Virus record (IMG/VR): IMGVR_UViG_3300037245_002484
Span: 1-44,153 of that record
DNA: 44,153 bases
Source of the DNA: a virus
Strand: one strand, 5' to 3'
In this document: positions 10,594 through 43,549 of the stretch, piece by piece
Layout of the letters: each line of letters starts with the position of its first letter
Position numbering within the stretch: the stretch's first letter is position 1
Notes under the pieces: model-generated
Database searches by the model: none
The model's input: the letters and a program-made list of their open reading frames with translations, nothing else
Told to the model about the DNA's origin: nothing
Translations under genes and position numbers: made by a program

Positions 10594-10835
10594 CTTGTCT
10601 CCTTCACCATGTTTTGCCCGCAAGTAGGGCACTCTTTCACCACTTCTACCACAATGCCAAACAACCGCCGCGAGTCCGCGCGGGGATAATCACCAATGCT
10701 CGGCGAATGAACAAGTTCATCTATTTCGCCCTGCAATGCCTTATACCCCTTTTTGTCAAGAGTTATGATAACAATCTTGCCCTCTTGCGCAACAATCGCC
10801 GCCTGAAAAGCTAACAAGCTTTCATAAATCTTCAT
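10590..10835 (-). CDS. 81-aa protein with C-terminal CPTCG motif
   Basis: The ATG at 10833-10835 has GGAGGG four bases upstream; a TTG five codons earlier is possible but less likely. The body is a small alpha/beta domain and the tail has CPTCGQN, like half a zinc ribbon. The stop overlaps the start of the 81-aa gene downstream, and its own start overlaps the stop of the dockerin lipoprotein gene. No function can be assigned. Confidence 0.6.
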   Translation of the reverse strand: MKIYESLLAFQAAIVAQEGKIVIITLDKKGYKALQGEIDELVHSPSIGDYPRADSRRLFGIVVEVVKECPTCGQNMVKETR

Positions 10836-12628
10836 CTTCCCTCCAACCAATTATCTGAAAACCACATCAAGTCCGATATGTCCGTTTGCCCGTCATAGTC
10901 GGCGTCGTACATCAAATCGTATGCGAAATTAGGGTCATACAAACCAAAGACATCATCATTCCACCTGGCCGCAAACAAACCATAATCCTTATTGTCCACA
11001 TAGCCGTCATAATTGAAGTCGCCATAAAAACTATCGCCGGTAATTTCTAATCGCCCCCCTTCCGGGACATAAATCGCCGCAATAGAATTGCCCCAACTAT
11101 CATAATACTCACCTTGTTGCTCAGGAAATTCCATCGGTAAAATATAATCCGTGGCTAAATAAACAGTGTTGCCCCAAAATTGATAAACATGCAATTTTAT
11201 AGGCATCTCAGATACTTTCCGTCCCAAAGCATCTTTTGATATTACCACGCCGGTATGCTGAAATGTCTGCACGCTCCCTATTTCCTCCACTTCCCACCGG
11301 CACAGGAACACATACGGCTGTGATAAATCCATTGCAAGCGTAACCTCGTTGGAGTCATCAATGTTTGAAATCCAAGTAGCCACTACACCATTTATATAAT
11401 CCCAGCCATAGTAAGGGTACCACTTTTGCCAAATCCCATCTAAATATTCCCAACCCTCTCCCGACATTGGAACTTCCGGCAATACGCCTTCATTCGGGTC
11501 AAAGTATGTATAACAATTCGGGTCGGGAACCATCGGCCCTGCAATCCACGGCCAATCAGGGTCAAGGATATAGCAATTCGGTTCTGTAACCATACATACC
11601 GGGTCATATAGCCAGGGACAATTCGGGTCTGGATAGTCAGGGCAATCAGGGTCTATAAACCATCCGGGGCAATTCGGGTCAGGAATCGGATTGATAATAT
11701 CCGGCCATATACAATTCGGGTCAACAATCCACGGACAATTCGGGTCGATAACGAGAGGGCCGGGAATGAAAACGCAATTAGGGTCATAAACCACAATCCA
11801 GTCCGGCGAAGGCGCACCGCTTTTAGCAAACGATAGTCTGGGGTAAGGGACTTTTTTAATCGACGCCGCTTCGGTTAAATCAAACTCCCCCACCGGCCCC
11901 AGGTGTTCGGCGGCGCCCTCGCCACCACTTTTATCTGAGATCGTAGGCCAACCATCCCAGCCGTCCCACTCGCTCAAAGAAGAAAAGGAATGTTCAAAAA
12001 CTCCACCAAACGGTTCCCAGAAGTTTTGATACTGCGACCGGAAAAAGACCACATAACAATCGTTTATAATATTGCCTGTGGCTTTTTGTATAACAAAACG
12101 CAATTCCACGAAAGTCGAAACACCGTCTTTACCGTCCGGCCAAACATAGCCAACGTCTCCTGCCTCGAACCCTACGTCGGGATCGCCTAACCCGATTAAA
12201 AATACACACTCACCCGAGGCGTCTGTGTAAGCCTTAGCCATCCCCTCATCACGATCCCAACTACCATTAGGCAACGAATGCACATATCCGTATCTCTCTC
12301 CGTTTGGGGTGTATTCGTCCCATATATCCTCTCCAATATCCAGCGGATCGCTATGAGAAATGATTTGGCATTCAACTTTAATGCCGGATAACGGAATACC
12401 ATTAGCTTGAACTCTGCACTTATAGCCGAAACCCGCGCCATAAATATCCTCAGCCCCATCCGTATCCCATACATCTAATTGATTGAACCTTCCCCCGGTA
12501 CGATACAACTCAATATCCATGCCATTTATAAATCTTACAACCGGCGAACCATCGGGGCACCCGCTTCCGACAACCGCCATGATAATCACAGCGGCCACAA
12601 TTAGTTTTGTTGTTAAATTTCTCATCAT
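10832..12628 (-). CDS. Lipoprotein with Asp-Pro-Asn-Cys repeats and C-terminal type I dockerin
   Basis: This 598-aa protein looks like a host surface protein rather than a phage one. Residues 1-24 form a signal peptide ending in a lipobox-like VGSGC (acylated Cys24 predicted). Residues about 60-180 resemble an Ig-like domain. Residues 282-378 hold a run of DPNC or DPDC units with Trp, Tyr and Pro between. Residues 537-548 and 575-586 are two calcium-binding dockerin loops (DFNYDGYVDNKD and DADYDGQTDISD). Dockerins on lipoproteins and secreted proteins are abundant in Planctomycetota. It sits in the late operon beside a membrane protein and near a lysozyme-like gene. Superinfection exclusion or envelope change is inferred only. 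Confidence 0.75.
   Translation of the reverse strand: MMRNLTTKLIVAAVIIMAVVGSGCPDGSPVVRFINGMDIELYRTGGRFNQLDVWDTDGAEDIYGAGFGYKCRVQANGIPLSGIKVECQIISHSDPLDIGEDIWDEYTPNGERYGYVHSLPNGSWDRDEGMAKAYTDASGECVFLIGLGDPDVGFEAGDVGYVWPDGKDGVSTFVELRFVIQKATGNIINDCYVVFFRSQYQNFWEPFGGVFEHSFSSLSEWDGWDGWPTISDKSGGEGAAEHLGPVGEFDLTEAASIKKVPYPRLSFAKSGAPSPDWIVVYDPNCVFIPGPLVIDPNCPWIVDPNCIWPDIINPIPDPNCPGWFIDPDCPDYPDPNCPWLYDPVCMVTEPNCYILDPDWPWIAGPMVPDPNCYTYFDPNEGVLPEVPMSGEGWEYLDGIWQKWYPYYGWDYINGVVATWISNIDDSNEVTLAMDLSQPYVFLCRWEVEEIGSVQTFQHTGVVISKDALGRKVSEMPIKLHVYQFWGNTVYLATDYILPMEFPEQQGEYYDSWGNSIAAIYVPEGGRLEITGDSFYGDFNYDGYVDNKDYGLFAARWNDDVFGLYDPNFAYDLMYDADYDGQTDISDLMWFSDNWLEGR
11494..11785 (-). repeat. Degenerate repeats encoding Asp-Pro-Asn-Cys units
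   Basis: The plus-strand core CAATTCGGGTC recurs several times here, for example near 11514, 11629, 11671 and 11711, with variants such as CAATTCGGTTC and CAATCAGGGTC. On the coding strand it reads GACCCGAATTG, giving Asp-Pro-Asn-Cys. Spacing between units is irregular (about 20-60 bases) and always in frame, as expected for coding repeats that can expand or shrink. Confidence 0.75.
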
Positions 12629-21290: not shown

Positions 21291-21378
21291 TGGCGGGTAA
21301 GCTCAGTGGTAGAGCTTGAGCGAGCTACGTGAAAGCGTCGAGCGCATCAGGTCGCAGGTTCGAACCCTGCCCCGCCTA
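21291..21378 (+). tRNA. tRNA-like gene with an expanded anticodon arm
   Basis: The acceptor (GGCGGG with CCCGCC), D arm (AGCT-CAGTGGTAG-AGCT) and T arm (GCAGG-TTCGAAC-CCTGC) are all clear, and the variable segment AGGTC is normal. Between D and T arms, however, there are about 13 bases too many. A GAGCG/CGC-A-TC stem can close a 20-base loop, or an inner stem CGAGCT/AGC-G-TCG can show a 7-base loop with anticodon GTG (His). The first acceptor pair is a T-T mismatch and CCA is not encoded. Isotype is undecided; it may be a pseudo-tRNA. Confidence 0.55.
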
Positions 21379-27461: not shown

Positions 27462-27627
27462 GTTCCACATAAAAACAATTTAATATATTGTAATCTTTAC
27501 ATCCTTGGGGATATTCAGGCCTTTCGTGTATTTTGCACCAATACTTTCCATTACTATAGGTTAAATTCTTTTTTGCACATTCTGGATGAGGTCTCCAGCA
27601 ACAAGCACCACATTGTTTACAGCACAT
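27427..27627 (-). CDS. 66-aa Cys-cluster (YkgJ-like) protein
   Basis: The product starts MCCKQCGACC and has nine Cys in 66 residues, with further Cys at CKIHERPEYP and GCKDYN. This is like a minimal version of the putative metal-chelating YkgJ family and of the 102-aa protein at 15052-15360. It is translationally coupled to the tail fibre gene (stop and start overlap at 27627). Function unknown. Confidence 0.6.
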   Translation of the reverse strand: MCCKQCGACCWRPHPECAKKNLTYSNGKYWCKIHERPEYPQGCKDYNILNCFYVEHERSKVGKNRL

Positions 27628-30600
27628 TAAGACCCTCCAATAACAATTCCATTAACTACCGTAACCGAAGTAAAGGAACCGGATACTCCCGCCACACCCC
27701 CTGTTCTGTAAGAACCCGAACAGTTCACATCCCCTGTTACATCACAAGCATACGAGGGAGCAGTTGTTCCGCCTATTCTTGTATTCCCTGCTAATGCGTT
27801 ATCAACACCGTTGGCTTCATACAAGCCCCAACTTGTTAGTGTTCCCCCACTTCCAAAATCGGCGTTGCTGGTGGCGGCATTAATATAAATGCCGTAACTT
27901 ATAATATCGCCACTGCCTCCATCTACTCCATCAACTGTATCAACACATAAACCGTAATTAAGTCCACCGACAGTAGAGTTATAAGTACCGTCCATAGCCC
28001 CCTTTAAGTAGCCCCCATAATTCTGGATATCTGCATTAAGGGATATTGTTTTTCCTGTCCAACCTAAAGTGGAGGATGCATGAGCACCATACGTAAAAAG
28101 AGAGTAAGCACCCTTAGAACCCTTTCCAACAAAATCTTCTTCATTACTGCACGTAAACTGCAATCCCATCGCAAGACCAATGTTATATGACCCGTCGTTT
28201 ATTATCGCAGTATTACAGCCTCCAAAAAGACCTCTTTGTTGTGCAGCATCAGCAGTTAAAGTACCTGCGGTATTGTTTATAAAACTACCGGCTAACCCAA
28301 AACCACCGGCTGTAGCGTCATCAGCCTCAAAACAACTCAGTGATAAAAAACCACTTGTTAAACCAGCGGGAATGGTGTTGGCGGGTTCTGAAACAAGTTC
28401 GTAAACTCCTTTGGTCAATGGTGCAATAGCAGCTGTTTTATGTGAGAACTTTGCGCCAGCAGTAACAGCGTTAGTATGAGTAGCAATATAGCCTGTTGTT
28501 GTTAAGTTCTCATCGTCAAAGTCTATCGCACCACTTGACGCCGTTATTTTCAAATCACATGAGCCAACGGTTCCTATAGTTGGTACGTCCGAAACTGTAG
28601 TTAATGAGATATAGTCAGTTCCGTCATCGTTTGTCTTTATATAAAGATTACCTGTTGACCTAATAATGCCTTCATTTGTAGTTTTTTCGTGTGAGAGGCC
28701 AATATAATTACTTCCAGTGCCCTGCAACTTAAAAGTTACGGAAGACCCATGGTCCGACTCAACATGAAATATATTACCGCCTATTACTTTAATAATCGGA
28801 ATGTTGGCGGATGTATAAAACTCTAAGTAATCGTCGTTGTCGCCAGAAGGTTTAAGCTGTATAGTATTGTCAGAGGAAATCACAGCGGGACTCCCACTGA
28901 TAACCAGAGCGTTGACCTCAGCCGTGCCATGAACGTCTAATAAATTATCGGGAGACGATGTACCTATGCCTACCCTGTCATTGGCGGCATCCACGTACAA
29001 CAGATTCATTTCGCTATCGCCGGAGATTAAGGTACGGAACGCATCCTGCTGTGCATTTAGCCAAACACCAGAGGCATCCAGCCTAATTAGGTCAGCGCCG
29101 CCACCTGAATAGAAGTCTATTACATCAGTAGTAAAAGCTATATAGTTATTTGTGTCGCCTGAATGCACTATATTGTCTGCTACGGTTAAGCTGCCGTTTA
29201 CGTCTAAAGTAGAAGCAGGGTCCACTTTACCTATACCAACTTTATTATTACCAGAGTCTACAAATAGCATATACTCATTGCTATCGCTTTCTACTCGAAA
29301 ATCCAAGCTCGCTATACCCTCATTATTAAAGATTGCCCCGCTTGTATTAAATCTGCCTAAGTCCCAACCACCGATTTCTATTTGTATGTTATCAGCCGAA
29401 AATTCAATCCAAGTATTGCCATCTCCTGTTGGTACTATTCTGCTATCTATACTAACTGTTCCAAATGTTACACTTGCTCCACTCGTAACATCTTGGTCAA
29501 TAAAGCTATGGTCCGACCCGTCATTAGAGATGTGAGTGTAGGCTGCTATCCCTTGCGTAACTGTCAGTGTGTTGTTGTCAACTGTATTATCCTGTAGGGT
29601 TAAATCCTCTGCGGTAGTATCACTACCGGATAATACCTGACCTCCGGTACGTCCAACTAAGAGGGCATATTGAAGGTGTGTATCTTGGTCCAGATTAGTT
29701 AGCGTACCGTGATCTGTGGCTACAAAAGTCCCACCGGGCAAGTTGGATACCGCTCTAAGGTCTTGTGTCTCTACAAACGTAGGCGGTGAACCTGTACTCC
29801 GCAGTATAACGCGATACAGTATCTTCATTTCTTCAAACGGTAGTTCGCCAAACGATAAGGACTCGTAAGTATTGTTAGCCCTGGCGTTGGCAAGTGTAGT
29901 ATCCTGTCTCTGGCCCATCAATGCAACTATAGGCTCACTTATATCATTGGTGGCGAATATCCACATAGCCATATAACGATTTGGGGTACAGTCCGCCAAG
30001 TCGTTACCATTGTTATATCGCAAGGCTGTGCCATTAAGTTTATAGTACACAGACGCACCGGCGTCCCATTCCCAAGCCGCCGAACCGTTCTTATATAATA
30101 CATTGCATGTAGTCTGTTGTGTTGGTGCGTGCTCTATATCCTCATCGTGCCACTCGCCAGCTTCAATAGTTATGGTAGTGGCATCGAACGTGCCAGCTAA
30201 TCCACCCTGATACCTTGACCCCACTGTCTCGTGCAGGTATTCGTGTGTGGCCCAATCCATTGCTATACCGTGGCGTTCTTCACCTGCCAATCCCTTATCA
30301 AACCCAACAGCAGTGTTCCAATACACTGTAGCCATTAGCGGTAAATCGAATCCAGGGAACGTAGTGCTACTCGACAAAGTTCCGGCCGCGTCATAATAAA
30401 TCCAGTATAGATCGGTAGCATCGGCTATCTGAATTGAATCCGTGCCCTTGGTTGTCTTGATACCGTCAATATAAATATCGTGATCGCCGGTAATGGTAAG
30501 GGTGTGGGTTCCGTCATTCCAACTCAGAGAGGCTACACGGTCAACGAATCCGCTGGGTTCCGAGGTGTCTGTCCATAGTGCAGGTAGTCCAACCCCCCCT

Positions 30601-30716
30601 ATTGTTGCCCCGGCCAAAGTCGGAAAGTCCGTCCAAAGCAGCAATCTCCCATCGTTGGTCAGGATTTTAAGGTTTTCCAACGGCGGTATCGGGTTATAGA
30701 CTGGCGTTAAGAGCAT
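27627..30716 (-). CDS. Tail fibre (putative receptor-binding protein)
   Basis: This 1029-aa, beta-rich protein is the probable host-recognition fibre. Residues 1-320 would be the virion-attached part. Residues 336-350 have the DHGTLTNLDQDTHLQY motif seen in many phage fibres, followed by LLVGRTGGQVLSGSD. Two fibre repeats of the form DSGNNKVGIG...LDVNG lie at about residues 487-507 and 575-597. The C-terminal third is rich in Gly, Ser, Thr and Asn and should form the tip. It follows the ejection proteins and starts behind AAGGAAAACAAGGG. Confidence 0.8.
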   Translation of the reverse strand: MLLTPVYNPIPPLENLKILTNDGRLLLWTDFPTLAGATIGGVGLPALWTDTSEPSGFVDRVASLSWNDGTHTLTITGDHDIYIDGIKTTKGTDSIQIADATDLYWIYYDAAGTLSSSTTFPGFDLPLMATVYWNTAVGFDKGLAGEERHGIAMDWATHEYLHETVGSRYQGGLAGTFDATTITIEAGEWHDEDIEHAPTQQTTCNVLYKNGSAAWEWDAGASVYYKLNGTALRYNNGNDLADCTPNRYMAMWIFATNDISEPIVALMGQRQDTTLANARANNTYESLSFGELPFEEMKILYRVILRSTGSPPTFVETQDLRAVSNLPGGTFVATDHGTLTNLDQDTHLQYALLVGRTGGQVLSGSDTTAEDLTLQDNTVDNNTLTVTQGIAAYTHISNDGSDHSFIDQDVTSGASVTFGTVSIDSRIVPTGDGNTWIEFSADNIQIEIGGWDLGRFNTSGAIFNNEGIASLDFRVESDSNEYMLFVDSGNNKVGIGKVDPASTLDVNGSLTVADNIVHSGDTNNYIAFTTDVIDFYSGGGADLIRLDASGVWLNAQQDAFRTLISGDSEMNLLYVDAANDRVGIGTSSPDNLLDVHGTAEVNALVISGSPAVISSDNTIQLKPSGDNDDYLEFYTSANIPIIKVIGGNIFHVESDHGSSVTFKLQGTGSNYIGLSHEKTTNEGIIRSTGNLYIKTNDDGTDYISLTTVSDVPTIGTVGSCDLKITASSGAIDFDDENLTTTGYIATHTNAVTAGAKFSHKTAAIAPLTKGVYELVSEPANTIPAGLTSGFLSLSCFEADDATAGGFGLAGSFINNTAGTLTADAAQQRGLFGGCNTAIINDGSYNIGLAMGLQFTCSNEEDFVGKGSKGAYSLFTYGAHASSTLGWTGKTISLNADIQNYGGYLKGAMDGTYNSTVGGLNYGLCVDTVDGVDGGSGDIISYGIYINAATSNADFGSGGTLTSWGLYEANGVDNALAGNTRIGGTTAPSYACDVTGDVNCSGSYRTGGVAGVSGSFTSVTVVNGIVIGGS

Positions 30717-36626: not shown

Positions 36627-37073
36627 TTATTCCTTAAAGAGTTTCGCGTATATATGAGCGTCTTTTTTATCTTCGGTGTATTGTCGCATTGTTCCTTCCC
36701 GTTTAAGGCCCGCGACTTCTATCAGTTTGATGGCCTTCCTGAAATCCGTTCTGATCGTCGTTTGGAATCGGTGCAATTTCAATTCAGCGGCGGCGATGTC
36801 AATGAACCTGGTTAGGAACATAGCCACAGCCACCTTGTAAATTTTGGCGTGTTCACTCAGAGCATACCATCCCTCACCAGTGCCCGGCCAAAATTCAACA
36901 ACGCCTCCAACGCCCAGAATTTGATTATTTATCAATCCCGTTTTGGCCCATCCGGCAATATGCACATCGTCAAAATGTTTCGTTACTTCCGGGTTTATGG
37001 GGAACATGCGAACATAAGCCAAATCCTCTTCTGTTGCATCACGAAGCTCAATTAGTTCAGAACAAGATTCCAT
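36627..37073 (-). CDS. GNAT-like protein (T7 gp13-like position)
   Basis: The 148-aa protein has the plan of GNAT acetyltransferases: IELRDATEEDLAYVR (residues 7-21), GVGGVVEFWPGTGEGWYAL (54-72), then IDIAAAELKLHRFQTT and a C-terminal LIEVAGLKREGTMRQY. Many podoviruses have such a protein between tail nozzle and ejection proteins, equivalent to T7 gp13, where it helps virion assembly. The acetyl-CoA loop is not clearly intact, so an enzymatic role is uncertain. It starts one base after the preceding stop (TAATATG). Confidence 0.7.
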   Translation of the reverse strand: MESCSELIELRDATEEDLAYVRMFPINPEVTKHFDDVHIAGWAKTGLINNQILGVGGVVEFWPGTGEGWYALSEHAKIYKVAVAMFLTRFIDIAAAELKLHRFQTTIRTDFRKAIKLIEVAGLKREGTMRQYTEDKKDAHIYAKLFKE

Positions 37074-37074
37074 A

Positions 37075-38274
37075 TTATCTTCCCGTTACATCCATTCGCG
37101 GCACTATCGCCCTGACCGTACATGGCATCGGGCCTTCGCTCGTAATGATTATCGGATTCAAAGGGTCGAATCCGCCAGGCATACTCACAACAACTTCGCC
37201 GGTGAACAGCCCTGTTATTTCACTGCTGTTTGTCCACCGAATATCGCTAAAGTCTATCGAGTGTAAGTCGTTTTCATTCGAGCCGTACTTTGCGGCGCCG
37301 GTATCTAAGAACGAAACAACTAATTCATTGACGCGGGTGATACTTCCCATACTTGACCCGTCCTGCCCGCCTAAAACGATACGCATCGGTTGAAGAATAC
37401 TGTTTTTAATCAATCCTACCTGTGCTAATTCCACCGCTGTTGATATTGTTACCTCGCCGCTCGCATCGACAACTGCTGTCGGCGTATATGCCACGCCGTC
37501 GCCCAACACAGTTACGACTTCGCCTATCAAGTGAGTAAGCCCCGCTATGGTTGCAGAGGCGGGACTGTTTTCAACCGTTATGCCGGAATCGACAAAGAAG
37601 GCGTTCTCTATCGTTGTTAAAATCCTTGAAGCTAATTGCTCGATATAAATCGTGTCTGCGCCGTTAATCGTGCGTTTGACGGAAATCGTTATCGTATCTT
37701 CATCGGAAGCTGGTGAAACACATACCGATTGAACCTCTACGCTTGTCCCGCCGATAGGTTGCTCCGACCATGCAACAACGTCCTGTTCGCGGTCAATAAC
37801 CATAGCTAATAAATAGCCGCCTTCAAGCGTGGCCCACAAGATCGAGTCAGGGTTCTTCTGGTATGCGATTGAAGTGATACCGCCCACTGTGATATTCTCG
37901 GCTAATGAAGTCAAGTCAGGAGAAACATATCTTCTGTCTGCATCGCTAAAAGTCATCTCCCTTATTTTACGGCCTACAAAATCAACGAACAGAATAGACT
38001 CGTTTACTTTGACAGGCTGGATAGCCTTGCTACCATAATTTGATTGTTCCTTAACAGACCAGTTTGAAGGCGTTAAAGGTGTTTCGACTTCATTAGAACT
38101 GATCTTCCATTCGCCACCAGTTGTTCCGAAAACAATGTCATTCAAAGATTTTACCCATACAATCGTATCGGTTGTGGGAATAGACAATGAAAACGAATCG
38201 GCATCATTGACACCTTCCTCGTAGTTATCGTAGTCGTTTACGTTACTAAGCCAAACTCTTTGTTCTGTTGCCAT
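37075..38274 (-). CDS. Tail tubular protein B (nozzle), C-terminal part
   Basis: The 399-aa product is the C-terminal half of a gp12-like tail nozzle. It begins inside the family's RVWLSNVNDYDNY segment and has IVFGTTGGEWKI (residues 47-58), NYGSKAIQPV, ILFVDFVGRKIREM, and REQDVVAWSEQP (about 161-172), all family hallmarks. Homologues normally have these in one chain with the part encoded just upstream. Here a TAA separates the two in the same frame (TAA-ATT-ATG). The ribosome site is weak, so reinitiation after the upstream stop is likely. Confidence 0.75.
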   Translation of the reverse strand: MATEQRVWLSNVNDYDNYEEGVNDADSFSLSIPTTDTIVWVKSLNDIVFGTTGGEWKISSNEVETPLTPSNWSVKEQSNYGSKAIQPVKVNESILFVDFVGRKIREMTFSDADRRYVSPDLTSLAENITVGGITSIAYQKNPDSILWATLEGGYLLAMVIDREQDVVAWSEQPIGGTSVEVQSVCVSPASDEDTITISVKRTINGADTIYIEQLASRILTTIENAFFVDSGITVENSPASATIAGLTHLIGEVVTVLGDGVAYTPTAVVDASGEVTISTAVELAQVGLIKNSILQPMRIVLGGQDGSSMGSITRVNELVVSFLDTGAAKYGSNENDLHSIDFSDIRWTNSSEITGLFTGEVVVSMPGGFDPLNPIIITSEGPMPCTVRAIVPRMDVTGR

Positions 38275-38277
38275 AAT

Positions 38278-41200
38278 TTAATCCGGTAATATTTGCGATA
38301 CTATTGGAGATTCACCTGCATAAACACACCTGTTGCCGCGAGAGAAAGTTACCGAAGCCGGATAACCTCTTAACGGAGACCACGCCCCTTCGGCCCATCG
38401 CCTTGTCGCTATTGTGCTTGCCGGTAACTTTATGATTTCAACCGTAACATTGTTCTCATCGGTAACAGCTACAACTTTAACAATGCCTTCCTGGATAGGA
38501 TTATCGACAGTCAAGGTAGCACCAAAGCCCGTTGACATACCAGCATCGGCATTGAGGCGATAAAATACATTATCATCTTTTTCTGTAAAAGCCAAACTAT
38601 CATTTCTTGCACCGGAAGTAAGCCCTTCGAACGGCCTGAATTCTTCCCAGCCGGAACTATTCTGGTTTCTTTGGACTCGCCAGGTACCTTTCCATGTACC
38701 TGTGCTTACGAAACGCGCCGTCCCTTTTACTTCTATGGCCTTAGATGTTCCTGCGCCTGAAAGTGAAAGTTTCTTTAATAATCTTGGATGAACCAATTTG
38801 AACAACGCCCCGACGTGATCGGCGTCATCAAAAATCGCTCCGGTCGAAACCAACGTATCTGTTGCTCCGACAACAAGAATCTTGCCGTCGTCTGTGCCAT
38901 TGTCAATGACCTCGTTTACATAAATCGTAACGGTTGGGGCACCGTAGGTAGTGGCTTCGGTTGCATGGACAGTGAAGTTAGCGTCATTGCCTGTCGAACC
39001 ATACACAGCAAAAGGTTTGTTTGGTGGAAATAACGCCGATATATCTGTAGCACTTGTAATCGTGAATTTCCCCACACCCGCCGCCCCAGCCGTTGCAGTT
39101 GCTATTGTCAGACCGGAGATAGACATTTTGGCTGTGTCCTGAACGTCTGGGTCGATAAAGTCATTTCTTAAAAGGAACGGCCCCTTATTGAACTCTATAA
39201 CATCAAGCGAAAACTCTGTGGCCGATACTCTGGATAATTTTCTCTGAGCATACGATGGATGCGTGATCCACATAACATCGCCGACCTGCTCGACATGGAG
39301 TGAAAACAAGTCCGCTTGCAAATATGGCGCTACGACTTCGACATGACTACCATTGTCCATGAGGGCTTCGCCGTTGAAGAAAAATCTAATATACGAACCT
39401 CCGAACTCACACTCGTAAGCGATTGATGAAGAAAATATGAATGGTATCATTCTTACCATGAGTTCGTCTCCCAAAAGCCAATAAGTTTCCCAATCTACAC
39501 CTGTTATGGGAATCGTATCATCAGTTTCCACATGCTCTAATATGCTAACATATTCATTTTCATCCGTTCCAACAATAGTAACACCTACGCCGTAAACAGT
39601 ATCAAATATCGGGTAAATATCATCCTCTATAATATACCAGACAGGCGTTAAAAAATCCCAATCGTCAAAAGTCAGTTCCTGTTTCATTTCGGCGGTTATT
39701 TTGGGTATGCCTTTTCCGGTATCACTCTGGCCCGATGTAGTGGTGTCATAGTAACAGTCAGAGATTGTACTTCCAATATTTCGACCAGCAAAACCCCCCA
39801 AGAAAGTACCGACAGAAACCGCCCCAGTTGAATATGAATTAGTTATTGAAGTTAAGAAAGCAGTGCCTACAAAGCCCCCCGTTCTTCCGTTAGTGTTATT
39901 TCCAATAACATCGCCAGTAGCATAGCAATTATTTATAACGCCAGAGCCATAGCCAAGAAAGCCCCCAACAAAAGATTGTGTGTCTGTGGCAGAAACGTTT
40001 CCCGTCGCATAAGATGTTTCTATTGTTCCGGTGTCAATCTGGCCTACAAAGCCTCCCACTCTATGAAAATTACCCGAACTTGTTACTGCTACCTCACTTG
40101 AACATCCTTGTACGGTTGTGGTTGATGTTATATAGCCCACAAAACCACCGATCTGATGACCCCCATCTATGGTCCCGGTAACACTACAGTTTATAACCGT
40201 ACCACCGGCAATCTTACCCGCAAAACCACCACTACGAGCATTGGCAGTTATATCAACATCCACTATCTTTAAGTCATGTACATATCCACCAGAAGATATA
40301 ACATCAAAGACCCCTTGATCGCTCGATGCGGTATCTATTGTAATGTTCGATACGGTAAAATCTCTACCATCTACCTCTCCCGTAAAAAGACCGTCCCCAG
40401 AGTTTCCTATCGGCGTGTAACTTTCTCCAACCATATCAATATCGTTGATCAGATAATAACTCGCGGAAGGATTATCTTTTATCGCCTGAAACTCCGCCGG
40501 TGTGCTTACAGGTATTGCTGCGCTTGTTGTGAATTTCCAAATGTCCCCCGTGGTAGTGCCAAAAGCATTTCTCGCATCCACCCTCCAATAATAATCAGTG
40601 TCAATAGCAAGGTCGGCTGGCGGGGTAAAGATAAAAACATCCTCATCATCCACAACTTTGACTGTCGGGGGGTTTGCATCCTCAAAATAAACATCAAAAG
40701 AATCTGTGTGAGTATCGCCAGCAAGCCATCTTACTGGATTCTCTATCGGTTGGCCTGTTGCCTCATCTACAGGCGTTGGAGATATAGCCTTCAAAGGTTC
40801 GGGTTCAAAGCCGTAAACCCTGAACCCAAGGTCTTTATCGTCTGGAACTGAATTTCCAAAACCATCATCGTATGAATCCCAAGTGTCCCCCGAATCCAAA
40901 GAACGATAAGCCACGCCAGCATAAATTCCTCCTGAGTCCAAAAGCACCCTGGCCCCATGAGAAGCCTCCAATGATTTGTTCGTTCGCAACACAATGCAAT
41001 ACTTCGTTCCGGTAGTTAGAAAAATAGCCTCAGAACCCGTTCCGAAATTAAATCGAGAATAACCATCTGTCCCATCCCCTACGTCGGCAAAATTCAATGT
41101 CGCTGTTTTCAGTATTGAACCTGTTGGTTTACTGTTACCATCAGCGGCGTATATATCACAATGAATATAATTAGTAAAACCTTCTCCTGGGGAACTGGAA

Positions 41201-41370
41201 AGCCTCAATGAACATTCTATATAGTCCACTCTGAAAGAAGATGTCGTAGTGAAAGATTGTGAAAAATATAATATTTCAGTTATAAGGGCTTCCCTGCCTT
41301 CTGAAGCAGCTTCGAAGAAACTTAACTCAGACAAATCAAATACGTTACTATTTCTTAATGTAGAGGCCAT
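38278..41370 (-). CDS. Tail tubular protein B (nozzle), middle part with inserted surface domains
   Basis: The 1030-aa product has two parts. Residues about 20-188 resemble a jelly-roll-like anchor domain, 195-283 an Fn3-like domain (SPTPVDEATGQPIENPVRW, TDYYWRVDA, GDIWKFTT), and 375-545 about six GLUG repeats (GGFVG-type), a plan typical of planctomycete surface proteins. From about residue 635 the nozzle family resumes: VRMIPFIFSSS, SYIRFFFNGE, QVGDVMWITHPSYAQRKLSR, and finally GYPASVTFSRGNRCVYAGE, after which the chain stops at TAA. A GGTGA ribosome site precedes its ATG. The inserted domains may display host-binding surfaces on the tail. Confidence 0.75.
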   Translation of the reverse strand: MASTLRNSNVFDLSELSFFEAASEGREALITEILYFSQSFTTTSSFRVDYIECSLRLSSSPGEGFTNYIHCDIYAADGNSKPTGSILKTATLNFADVGDGTDGYSRFNFGTGSEAIFLTTGTKYCIVLRTNKSLEASHGARVLLDSGGIYAGVAYRSLDSGDTWDSYDDGFGNSVPDDKDLGFRVYGFEPEPLKAISPTPVDEATGQPIENPVRWLAGDTHTDSFDVYFEDANPPTVKVVDDEDVFIFTPPADLAIDTDYYWRVDARNAFGTTTGDIWKFTTSAAIPVSTPAEFQAIKDNPSASYYLINDIDMVGESYTPIGNSGDGLFTGEVDGRDFTVSNITIDTASSDQGVFDVISSGGYVHDLKIVDVDITANARSGGFAGKIAGGTVINCSVTGTIDGGHQIGGFVGYITSTTTVQGCSSEVAVTSSGNFHRVGGFVGQIDTGTIETSYATGNVSATDTQSFVGGFLGYGSGVINNCYATGDVIGNNTNGRTGGFVGTAFLTSITNSYSTGAVSVGTFLGGFAGRNIGSTISDCYYDTTTSGQSDTGKGIPKITAEMKQELTFDDWDFLTPVWYIIEDDIYPIFDTVYGVGVTIVGTDENEYVSILEHVETDDTIPITGVDWETYWLLGDELMVRMIPFIFSSSIAYECEFGGSYIRFFFNGEALMDNGSHVEVVAPYLQADLFSLHVEQVGDVMWITHPSYAQRKLSRVSATEFSLDVIEFNKGPFLLRNDFIDPDVQDTAKMSISGLTIATATAGAAGVGKFTITSATDISALFPPNKPFAVYGSTGNDANFTVHATEATTYGAPTVTIYVNEVIDNGTDDGKILVVGATDTLVSTGAIFDDADHVGALFKLVHPRLLKKLSLSGAGTSKAIEVKGTARFVSTGTWKGTWRVQRNQNSSGWEEFRPFEGLTSGARNDSLAFTEKDDNVFYRLNADAGMSTGFGATLTVDNPIQEGIVKVVAVTDENNVTVEIIKLPASTIATRRWAEGAWSPLRGYPASVTFSRGNRCVYAGESPIVSQILPD

Positions 41371-41384
41371 TAACTCACCAAATA

Positions 41385-41573
41385 TCAGACATCGTACACT
41401 TTGCTCTTATGGATAAATTTTGTACCCGACCTTCTTTCGGCAGTTCCGTATATCCGGGGGATATAGCCCGCTAATTGCAGACAGCCTGCATCTTGCTTTT
41501 CCACATCATCCCTGTTGAATATTTGCGGTGTCAATAAACCTGCGTTAGATTTTACAATAGGTACGTTTGGCAT
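41385..41573 (-). CDS. Tail tubular protein B (nozzle), N-terminal part
   Basis: The 62-aa product reads like the first 60 residues of gp12-like nozzle or stabilisation proteins: KSNAGLLTPQI (8-18), DAGCLQLAGYIP, then GTAERRSGTKFI (43-54). In homologues, the chain runs on into the RLIPF segment, which here lies inside the next ORF. The stop comes ten residues after RRSGTKFI, and the following ORF is in another frame with its own ATG. It is therefore a split N-terminus rather than a separate small gene. Confidence 0.65.
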   Translation of the reverse strand: MPNVPIVKSNAGLLTPQIFNRDDVEKQDAGCLQLAGYIPRIYGTAERRSGTKFIHKSKVYDV

Positions 41574-42058
41574 TATAAATTCCTCAAAACAGTTTCTTCT
41601 TTCGCAGGTTCGGTATCGTCCACATGAACAACTATCATTTGCTGTGCCACTTTAATAGCTTCAACATCATCGACAATGCCCGAAAGTTCGCCGCTTGATA
41701 CTGTAAACTCACCGGAACCGACAGGCTGACCTTTTGAAGTTACCGTATCATTTACCGTACTATCCAAATCCGCAACCCAATCTTCATCACTAAAAACCCT
41801 TTCGAGTTCCCACAGCACGGGTACTTCGGTCTCAAGATATACAACTACAGCATCTTCCCATGTAACAGTTTCGAGTCTGTGAACCTGAACCACATCGCCA
41901 TCTACGAGATCGGTTAAAGGTGTAGCCCTGTAATATCCTACATCACGGACTTCCGGCAACGGCTGGTCAGGAATTCCCCGCCCCACGCCGGATGGTTGGT
42001 AGGCGGTAAATACCAGGTCGAAGCCTGAGTGCCATGTAAATTTAACTTCATAATCCAT
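41573..42058 (-). CDS. 161-aa late protein
   Basis: No family is recognised. The product is acidic and looks all-beta, with Val/Thr/Glu-rich strands through its length (EVPVLWELERVF, VGSGEFTVSSGELSG). It overlaps the N-terminal nozzle gene by one base. Place and composition suggest a virion protein of the tail or neck. Confidence 0.55.
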   Translation of the reverse strand: MDYEVKFTWHSGFDLVFTAYQPSGVGRGIPDQPLPEVRDVGYYRATPLTDLVDGDVVQVHRLETVTWEDAVVVYLETEVPVLWELERVFSDEDWVADLDSTVNDTVTSKGQPVGSGEFTVSSGELSGIVDDVEAIKVAQQMIVVHVDDTEPAKEETVLRNL

Positions 42059-42063
42059 CTTGG

Positions 42064-42447
42064 CTAATAAAGAAATCCGAACAGATACAAGGTATTTCCA
42101 GCGGCGCCACTTTGGCTTGCTACGGTAGCTTCTATCACGGTAGCGGCTGCATAGGATTTGCTCTTTAACGGCGTTGTATTCGGAATCGGTTTGACAATCA
42201 CAGCGTCATACTGCGCATCCAGATTCGATAATATGTTAGACGCCAAAAAGTCGGTAGTGGCCCCGTTTTGCCCTATTGTTATTGTTGTCGTAGCGCCTGC
42301 ATCATCAGCAGCCACTATAACAGCATGGCTCAACACACATCTTTTCCCCGCTGGCACCGTGTATAAAGTCGTATCTGCATCAGCAGCCAACGATATGGTT
42401 GTTGTGCTTAATAACGCCACAGCCTTTTCTTTTAAGTCCACACTCAC
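42064..42447 (-). CDS. 127-aa beta-rich late protein
   Basis: The product has regular beta-strand alternation (TTISLAADADTTLYTVPAGK, then VLSHAVIVAADDAGATTTIT, and AGNTLYLFGFLY at the end), a plan shared with small phage virion proteins with jelly-roll-like domains. It may be distantly related to the 129-aa protein of the terminal repeat, which has a similar size and strand layout. A decoration or tail role is inferred. AAGGAG precedes the ATG. Confidence 0.6.
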   Translation of the reverse strand: MSVDLKEKAVALLSTTTISLAADADTTLYTVPAGKRCVLSHAVIVAADDAGATTTITIGQNGATTDFLASNILSNLDAQYDAVIVKPIPNTTPLKSKSYAAATVIEATVASQSGAAGNTLYLFGFLY

Positions 42448-42667: not shown

Positions 42668-43549
42668 TTAATTTCCATATCTTGCTAAGTCCCAATCGTC
42701 TCGGCCTGATACGTTTGTTTGCTGGGCCGCTACAAGCCTTGCCCGTGTCATAACAGCCCTCAAATCCTCTTTAATGTCGGCTTTCATTGGGTTTGTTTTC
42801 GTGCCGGCAAGTGGCGGGGTGAGTTTAAGTGCCGTTCTTAGAATCAGGACTTCCGTAAATAACGGCTTGAAATCATCGGGGTCTGTAACCAGCTTGACAT
42901 ACTTGACATGAAGGGTATCGTAATTGGTCAATATTCGTTGACCTTCCATTTCCCACCTGCACTCGGGACGTTCCGTGCCATCATCTTCCCAAACGCTTTT
43001 CAGGCGAAGGAAGTCGTTAGGAAGTTGATATTGATGTGTCCATTCAAAATCAGGAGTGATCCCGGTAACAGTAGGAAAGCCGGTACCGCAGACGGTTTGG
43101 TCGTCTGAATCATCGTACCAAACAACTTCATCCTCTCCATAAACTACTTCGACACCTTCCCACGTTACGGCAAAGATAGTGGCGTTGGTGATTGTCTCCC
43201 CGTCTGTGAAGTCTCCTGAAATATGAATTATCTCATATTCCGTTCCCGAAGTTACAGTCAGGATTTCGGCGGTTGTGCCCGAGGATATTCCGGTGATTGT
43301 ATCCCCGACAACCCAATTATCCGGCCCAGGCTCGGCGTCTAATAATATTGTGCTTATCTTGCCGAGTTCTTCCCGGTCGGTGGCAAACGGCCATTCATAA
43401 GATTCGAGCAAAGAATTGCGGGTCTGTTCGTAATGGCGGATAGCTGTAAGAGCCGGAAGTGTCGTCTGATCTGCGAAGGCTATCTGGCCTAAGCTAACTC
43501 TATCGTTCGCCTGGTTTACGATGACTAATTCGGCTTCTGTCAGACTCAT
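42668..43549 (-). CDS. Tail tubular protein A (T7 gp11-like) with inserted domain
   Basis: The 293-aa protein should form the ring below the portal. Family features are VNQANDRVSLGQI (residues 10-22), RNSLLESYEWPFATDR (45-60), then WTHQYQLPNDFLRLKSVW (170-187), LHVKYVKLVTDPDDFKPLF and a helical C-terminus. Between residues about 65 and 165 is an extra acidic beta domain (GDTITGISSGTTAEILTVTSG, GDFTDGETITNA) not found in T7 gp11. Length is about 100 residues more than T7's. The first 37 codons recur at the left end of the contig. Confidence 0.75.
   Translation of the reverse strand: MSLTEAELVIVNQANDRVSLGQIAFADQTTLPALTAIRHYEQTRNSLLESYEWPFATDREELGKISTILLDAEPGPDNWVVGDTITGISSGTTAEILTVTSGTEYEIIHISGDFTDGETITNATIFAVTWEGVEVVYGEDEVVWYDDSDDQTVCGTGFPTVTGITPDFEWTHQYQLPNDFLRLKSVWEDDGTERPECRWEMEGQRILTNYDTLHVKYVKLVTDPDDFKPLFTEVLILRTALKLTPPLAGTKTNPMKADIKEDLRAVMTRARLVAAQQTNVSGRDDWDLARYGN

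Follow-up and report, generated by a model that had tools for sequence, protein, structure and literature searches.

The stretch of viral DNA analysed here (44,153 nt; IMG/VR record IMGVR_UViG_3300037245_002484; hereafter the window) carries on its minus strand a gp12-like tail nozzle that is distributed over three ORFs, with an adhesin-like cassette of several domains lying between the N-terminal piece and the core. The features of the locus are as follows (residue numbers within the mid ORF are approximate; relatives are cited by their locus handles):

42668..43549, minus strand: tail protein (phrog_394, profile match), upstream; an expected neighbour of a nozzle gene
41385..41573, minus strand: nozzle N piece, ORF of 62 aa (phrog_376 positions 12-60)
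41371..41384, minus strand: junction J1, 14 nt from the stop of the N piece to the ATG of the mid ORF, out of frame
38278..41370, minus strand: mid ORF, 1030 aa, adhesin-like cassette plus nozzle core (Pfam, phrog_376, 8ck1)
40807..41265, minus strand: jelly-roll-like domain, residues 36-188, choice-of-anchor R type via homology to L020 (moderate confidence)
40522..40803, minus strand: Fn3-like domain, residues 190-283, from alignment and model (weak to moderate confidence)
39601..40503, minus strand: GLUG repeat region, residues 290-590, six Pfam stretches (PF07581, total E = 9.7e-22)
39466..39588, minus strand: short module VTIVGTDENEYVSILEH..PITGVDWETYW, common to L020, directly before the core (alignment)
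38278..39462, minus strand: nozzle core within the mid ORF, from about residue 637, LGDELMVRMIPF (phrog_376)
38275..38280, minus strand: junction J2, in-frame TAA, one codon (ATT), next ATG; an "empty" split that is kept in L020
37075..38274, minus strand: nozzle C piece, ORF of 399 aa (phrog_376 positions 315-711)

In the profile search, the family of gp12-like tail nozzles (phrog_376) was matched consecutively over the three ORFs with the profile order kept: the N ORF covered profile positions 12-60 (E = 8.7e-8), residues 639-1020 of the mid ORF positions 66-312 (E = 1.1e-35), and the C ORF positions 315-711 (E = 6.7e-101). The solved structure of the Carin-1 nozzle (8ck1_A) was likewise matched in sequence by residues 639-743 of the mid ORF (3.4e-16) and by residues 5-267 of the C piece (3.1e-37). 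The original prediction of one gp12-like nozzle in the right order over these minus-strand ORFs, for which alignment of the core with gp12-like proteins had been set as the test, is therefore borne out, and so is the proposed insertion of several foreign domains behind the N-terminal part; about 636 such residues precede the core. Profile mapping revealed no second nozzle elsewhere in the window. As stops separate the three ORFs, the window does not encode the single polypeptide that characterizes gp12-like nozzles; given the clear homology and the two-gene nozzles of cultured phages (see below), this split is regarded as a departure within the phrog_376 family and not as an exclusion from it. 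The flanking sequence (window 41573-42058) encodes a short acidic repeat, VTWEDxxVTYEDETVTYE in type, that is also seen in other tail-region proteins, namely the C pieces of L041 and L043 and ORFs of L046, L130 and L149; a "DLKEK" type protein of 125-131 aa (window 42064-42447; also L046, L136 and L149) varies in its location around the nozzle pieces, as if it were a mobile gene.

The closest unsplit nozzle to the window among those found first (L045) served as structure proxy. Its AlphaFold model (pLDDT 89.6, pTM 0.83) matches Carin-1 8ck1 (Z 39.8) and T7 gp12 (Z approximately 26) in fold, and the propeller, platform, dock and tip of the nozzle fold were recognized in this unsplit homologue only. 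In the L045 model, J1 is placed in the loop at 56-62 and J2 in that at 360-366; a third break site of relatives, J3, lies near residues 593-604 by alignment. The N-terminal 45 residues of T7 gp12 form three strands of the platform barrel (PMC6702177), a region that agrees with the separable N piece in the window; by this analogy, strands of the N piece would be added to a domain that the C piece otherwise forms.

Within the cassette, the predicted GLUG repeats were confirmed clearly above the Pfam cut-off (six stretches; 76.3 bits in total versus a gathering score of 20.5). The jelly-roll and Fn3 domains proposed alongside them are likely, but weaker calls: the choice-of-anchor R family (choice_anch_R, NF041539) was matched by the L020 cassette with 29.2 bits, below the cut-off of 30, and was without match in the window cassette, which is homologous to that of L020 (approximately 33-34% identity over alignable residues); the Fn3-like call is based on alignment and a low-confidence model. 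The AlphaFold model of the window cassette is poor (pLDDT 51), and its Foldseek matches (Fn3 pairs; weak beta-helix/pectate lyase matches) are therefore weak hints only. Relatives of the GLUG cassette were found in a Thermoplasmata MAG (44%), a Phycisphaerae MAG (38%), Clostridia, Bacteroidota and others; in consequence of this distribution across many phyla, the specifically planctomycete source that had been suggested for the insert is not supported. Elsewhere in the window, a 598-aa protein (10832-12628) combines a signal resembling that of lipoproteins with DPNC-rich repeats and, at its C-terminus, a dockerin-like motif that stays below the cut-off (Pfam E 0.28).

The three-ORF split recurs in the nearest relative, L020 (IMG/VR 3300024262_000058), the DNA of which is approximately 77-83% identical to the window over the aligned blocks and which encodes ORFs of 62, 716 and 399 aa. 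Its N end is identical to that of the window (KFIHKSKVYDV, then stop) and its J2 sequence nearly so; the DNA alignment of the two ends at the N end and restarts shortly before the core, and the L020 insert comprises jelly-roll and Fn3 domains without GLUG repeats. The N pieces are conserved at 85% of their amino acids, and the dN/dS values between window and L020 (N piece 0.10, core 0.106, C piece 0.079) reveal purifying selection that maintains all three pieces. In the cassettes, synonymous sites are saturated and 33% of the residues are identical where alignable; the cassette has thus been replaced or is changing very fast. In L035, whose portal is 89% identical to that of the window, N piece and core are fused in one 379-aa ORF with no insert at J1, and the second ORF (848 aa) starts with a GLUG cassette and continues into the C piece; a cassette of this kind is accordingly located at J2, a different site than in the window.

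For a wider comparison, a set of about 120 nozzle loci was compiled from two scans of viral contigs with C-piece alignments and from profile mapping. Most of the mapped loci consist of one ORF, and a single nozzle gene is present in Vibrio phages MZH0603 and 284E43-1, Pseudomonas phage Ab31 and Caulobacter phage BL94; a genome scan of sequenced prokaryotes yielded no nozzle relatives. Splits at fixed sites were found in 31 contigs (J1 in 17, J2 in 13 and J3 in 6, some being broken at two sites), a count that includes the near-duplicates L044 and L093 and leaves out L050, L101 and L115, whose apparent breaks outside J1-J3 are possible frameshift errors or chance matches. In the tree of 53 nozzle cores, the J1 and J2 splits group in one clade (27 rows; support 89/93, moderate) and the J3 splits in a separate clade of 4 rows (support 100/100); the minimum number of state changes, gains and losses counted together, is 6 for J1, 5 for J2 and 1 for J3. 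The cassettes are diverse (jelly-roll plus Fn3-like, GLUG, and others without family match) and extend either the downstream chain at its N-terminus (window, L020, L035, L040, L042, L043) or the upstream chain at its C-terminus (L041, L046, L130, L136). GLUG cassettes occur at J1 in the window, L046 and L130 and at J2 in L035 and L040. The N piece is present in two copies in L046, L130 and L136, one copy bearing a GLUG-type cassette, the GLUG reading of L136 being based on a sub-threshold Peptidase_M26_N match. The split, its fixed sites, the difference between cassettes and the purifying selection on the pieces can be read directly from the sequences. Large insertions are also found in the unsplit nozzles of L053, L059 and L150, where approximately 250-580 aa are inserted in frame around C-profile position 175.

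The arrangement in the window is probably best explained by a hexameric nozzle that is assembled from three separate ORF products folding in trans and that carries an exchangeable cassette at a chain end. The three tightly packed ORFs would be translated separately, and their products would fold together as a podovirus nozzle. In it, the first strands would come from the 62-aa N chain, most of the early propeller together with the tip from the mid chain, and the remaining propeller along with fibre dock and platform from the C chain. J1 breaks the chain in a loop, and the cassette (jelly-roll, Fn3-like, GLUG) is joined to the N-terminus that the break gives the mid chain, an arrangement that would expose several copies on the tail exterior. 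Attached at one chain end and not at both loop ends, a cassette could be swapped through recombination while the nozzle stays intact. Different cassettes are found in related phages, be it at this break site or at another. What we infer from these observations is assembly in trans, the allocation of domains to the chains, surface display and host binding.

A possible trace of cassette movement is a 14-nt leader, GCGATTTATTTTGG, which precedes the J1 cassette of L020 and is found as a one-mismatch copy before the homologous J2 cassette of L043, with no further occurrence in the 3.15 Mb scanned; in addition, L041 has retained a vestigial start of the C piece (MAMEQRIWLSD, then stop) between its cassette and the real C ORF. 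The RecE-like and RecT-like proteins encoded in the window would be a plausible means of exchange. A role of the cassettes as adhesins that display host-binding modules is plausible from the kinds of domains and their variability. It is rather unlikely, and yet worth weighing, that the split is real and the cassettes are instead structural spacers, a tail-lengthening stalk or enzymes acting on surface polymers: their diversity and the weak beta-helix lyase matches of the low-confidence model would fit such functions, but it is in host-recognition parts that such fast change or replacement among close relatives is more typically seen. The window also encodes a 1029-aa fibre-like protein (27627-30716) that bears GIG..P...LDV motifs and is a further candidate for contact with the host; because of this separate gene, the main role in receptor binding does not have to fall to the cassette.

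Whether a single polypeptide is made from the ORFs, through readthrough at J2, frameshifting at J1, bypass or an intron, can be judged from the junctions themselves. The J2 stop is in frame in both the window and L020, within conserved surrounding sequence, which speaks for joining; among the relatives, however, all three frame relations occur at the junctions, differing even at the same site, and J2 of L035 is out of frame, so that neither one frame relation nor a conserved site, as expected for readthrough or frameshifting, is shared. The distance from stop to start is mostly -8 to +34 nt at J1 and J2 where no genes intervene (82 nt in L041) and 235-304 nt at J3, and the downstream ORFs have their own start codon soon after the stop. 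In L121, L122, L126 and L128, the N ORF of 58-61 aa is located 1.1-1.9 kb away with several complete genes in between, which neither frameshifting nor bypass can bridge; in L149, a single virion-like gene occupies the gap and the core ORF starts exactly at the break (MVRLIPF). A translational bypass like that of T4 gene 60 was considered and rejected, as no matching take-off and landing codons were seen in the J2 sequence and the gene-filled gaps are not bypassable. Rfam covariance searches for group I or II introns gave nothing that reached the gathering score, either in the window or in seven relatives, and no match at E up to 5 in window 37000-41700. (Rfam reported a second tRNA at window 21292-21377, 33.6 bits, that is absent from the ARAGORN list.) Joining of the pieces is thus very unlikely. 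The differing junction frames, the whole genes in the J1 gap and the lack of a detected intron together make separately translated chains assembling in trans the most likely state of the nozzle pieces. The gap genes include free-standing endonucleases, i.e. an HNH endonuclease in L121 (3489-3989) and a recombination endonuclease VII in L126 (3636-3851), and a link of these genes to the origin of the splits is possible.

That the mid ORF is an independent adhesin with a leftover nozzle fragment, the three pieces forming no nozzle at all, appears highly improbable: the cassette does make up more than half of the ORF, but the core is conserved like the N and C pieces, no other nozzle was found in the window although a podovirus with this type of tail gene block is expected to have one, and the mid ORFs of homologues include the nozzle part, so that this proposed refutation of the original prediction did not materialize. 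An artefact of sequencing or assembly, or decay of the gene, conceivable insofar as the near relatives are all metagenomic contigs, can practically be dismissed in view of the same stop and start positions in L020 at approximately 80% DNA identity, dN/dS values of about 0.1 on each piece, break sites common to 31 contigs and two-gene nozzles in annotated genomes of cultured phages.

Among known systems, the core and C pieces of the window are alike in sequence to the Carin-1 nozzle (PDB 8ck1); this nozzle and T7 gp12 are, however, single chains without adhesin cassettes at the break sites of the window. The cultured Xanthomonas phages Alcala and CP2 possess a nozzle in two adjacent genes with a one-base overlap, which match phrog_20269 and phrog_15566 besides phrog_376 and are annotated as hypothetical proteins; unlike in the window, their break lies somewhat upstream of J2 and a large adhesin cassette is missing. 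A tail nozzle was unmentioned in the literature searched on phages such as these, and a limited search of the open literature yielded no publication on a split tail nozzle. The muzzle protein gp44 of phi-crAss001 combines a T7-like ring-joining domain with a seven-bladed propeller and varies in length through insertions that may alter surface properties (PMC10172136); in contrast to the window proteins, it is a single chain, with insertions in its Ig-like and crass domains and not at broken chain ends. Insertional fission into two complementary genes is reported for mitochondrial cox2 (PMC5374615), the gene of an unrelated enzyme without an exchangeable binding cassette.

A more far-reaching reading, to which we give somewhat less than even credence, is that the nozzle acts as a modular display platform: the essential DNA-gating ring would have been broken repeatedly at the same loops into trans-complementing chains, and each new end would offer a docking point for adhesin cassettes. 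Recombination would swap these cassettes, in at least one case along with the translation leader belonging to them. In podoviruses, DNA release is gated by nozzle proteins, which are single chains where described in the literature covered here. A working nozzle of two or three pieces with fixed breaks and exchangeable modules would, if true, mean that a core virion machine tolerates chain fission; it would also explain some of the unannotated "hypothetical" gene pairs in cultured phages, and the permissive loops would offer a handle on tail assembly and host-range evolution.
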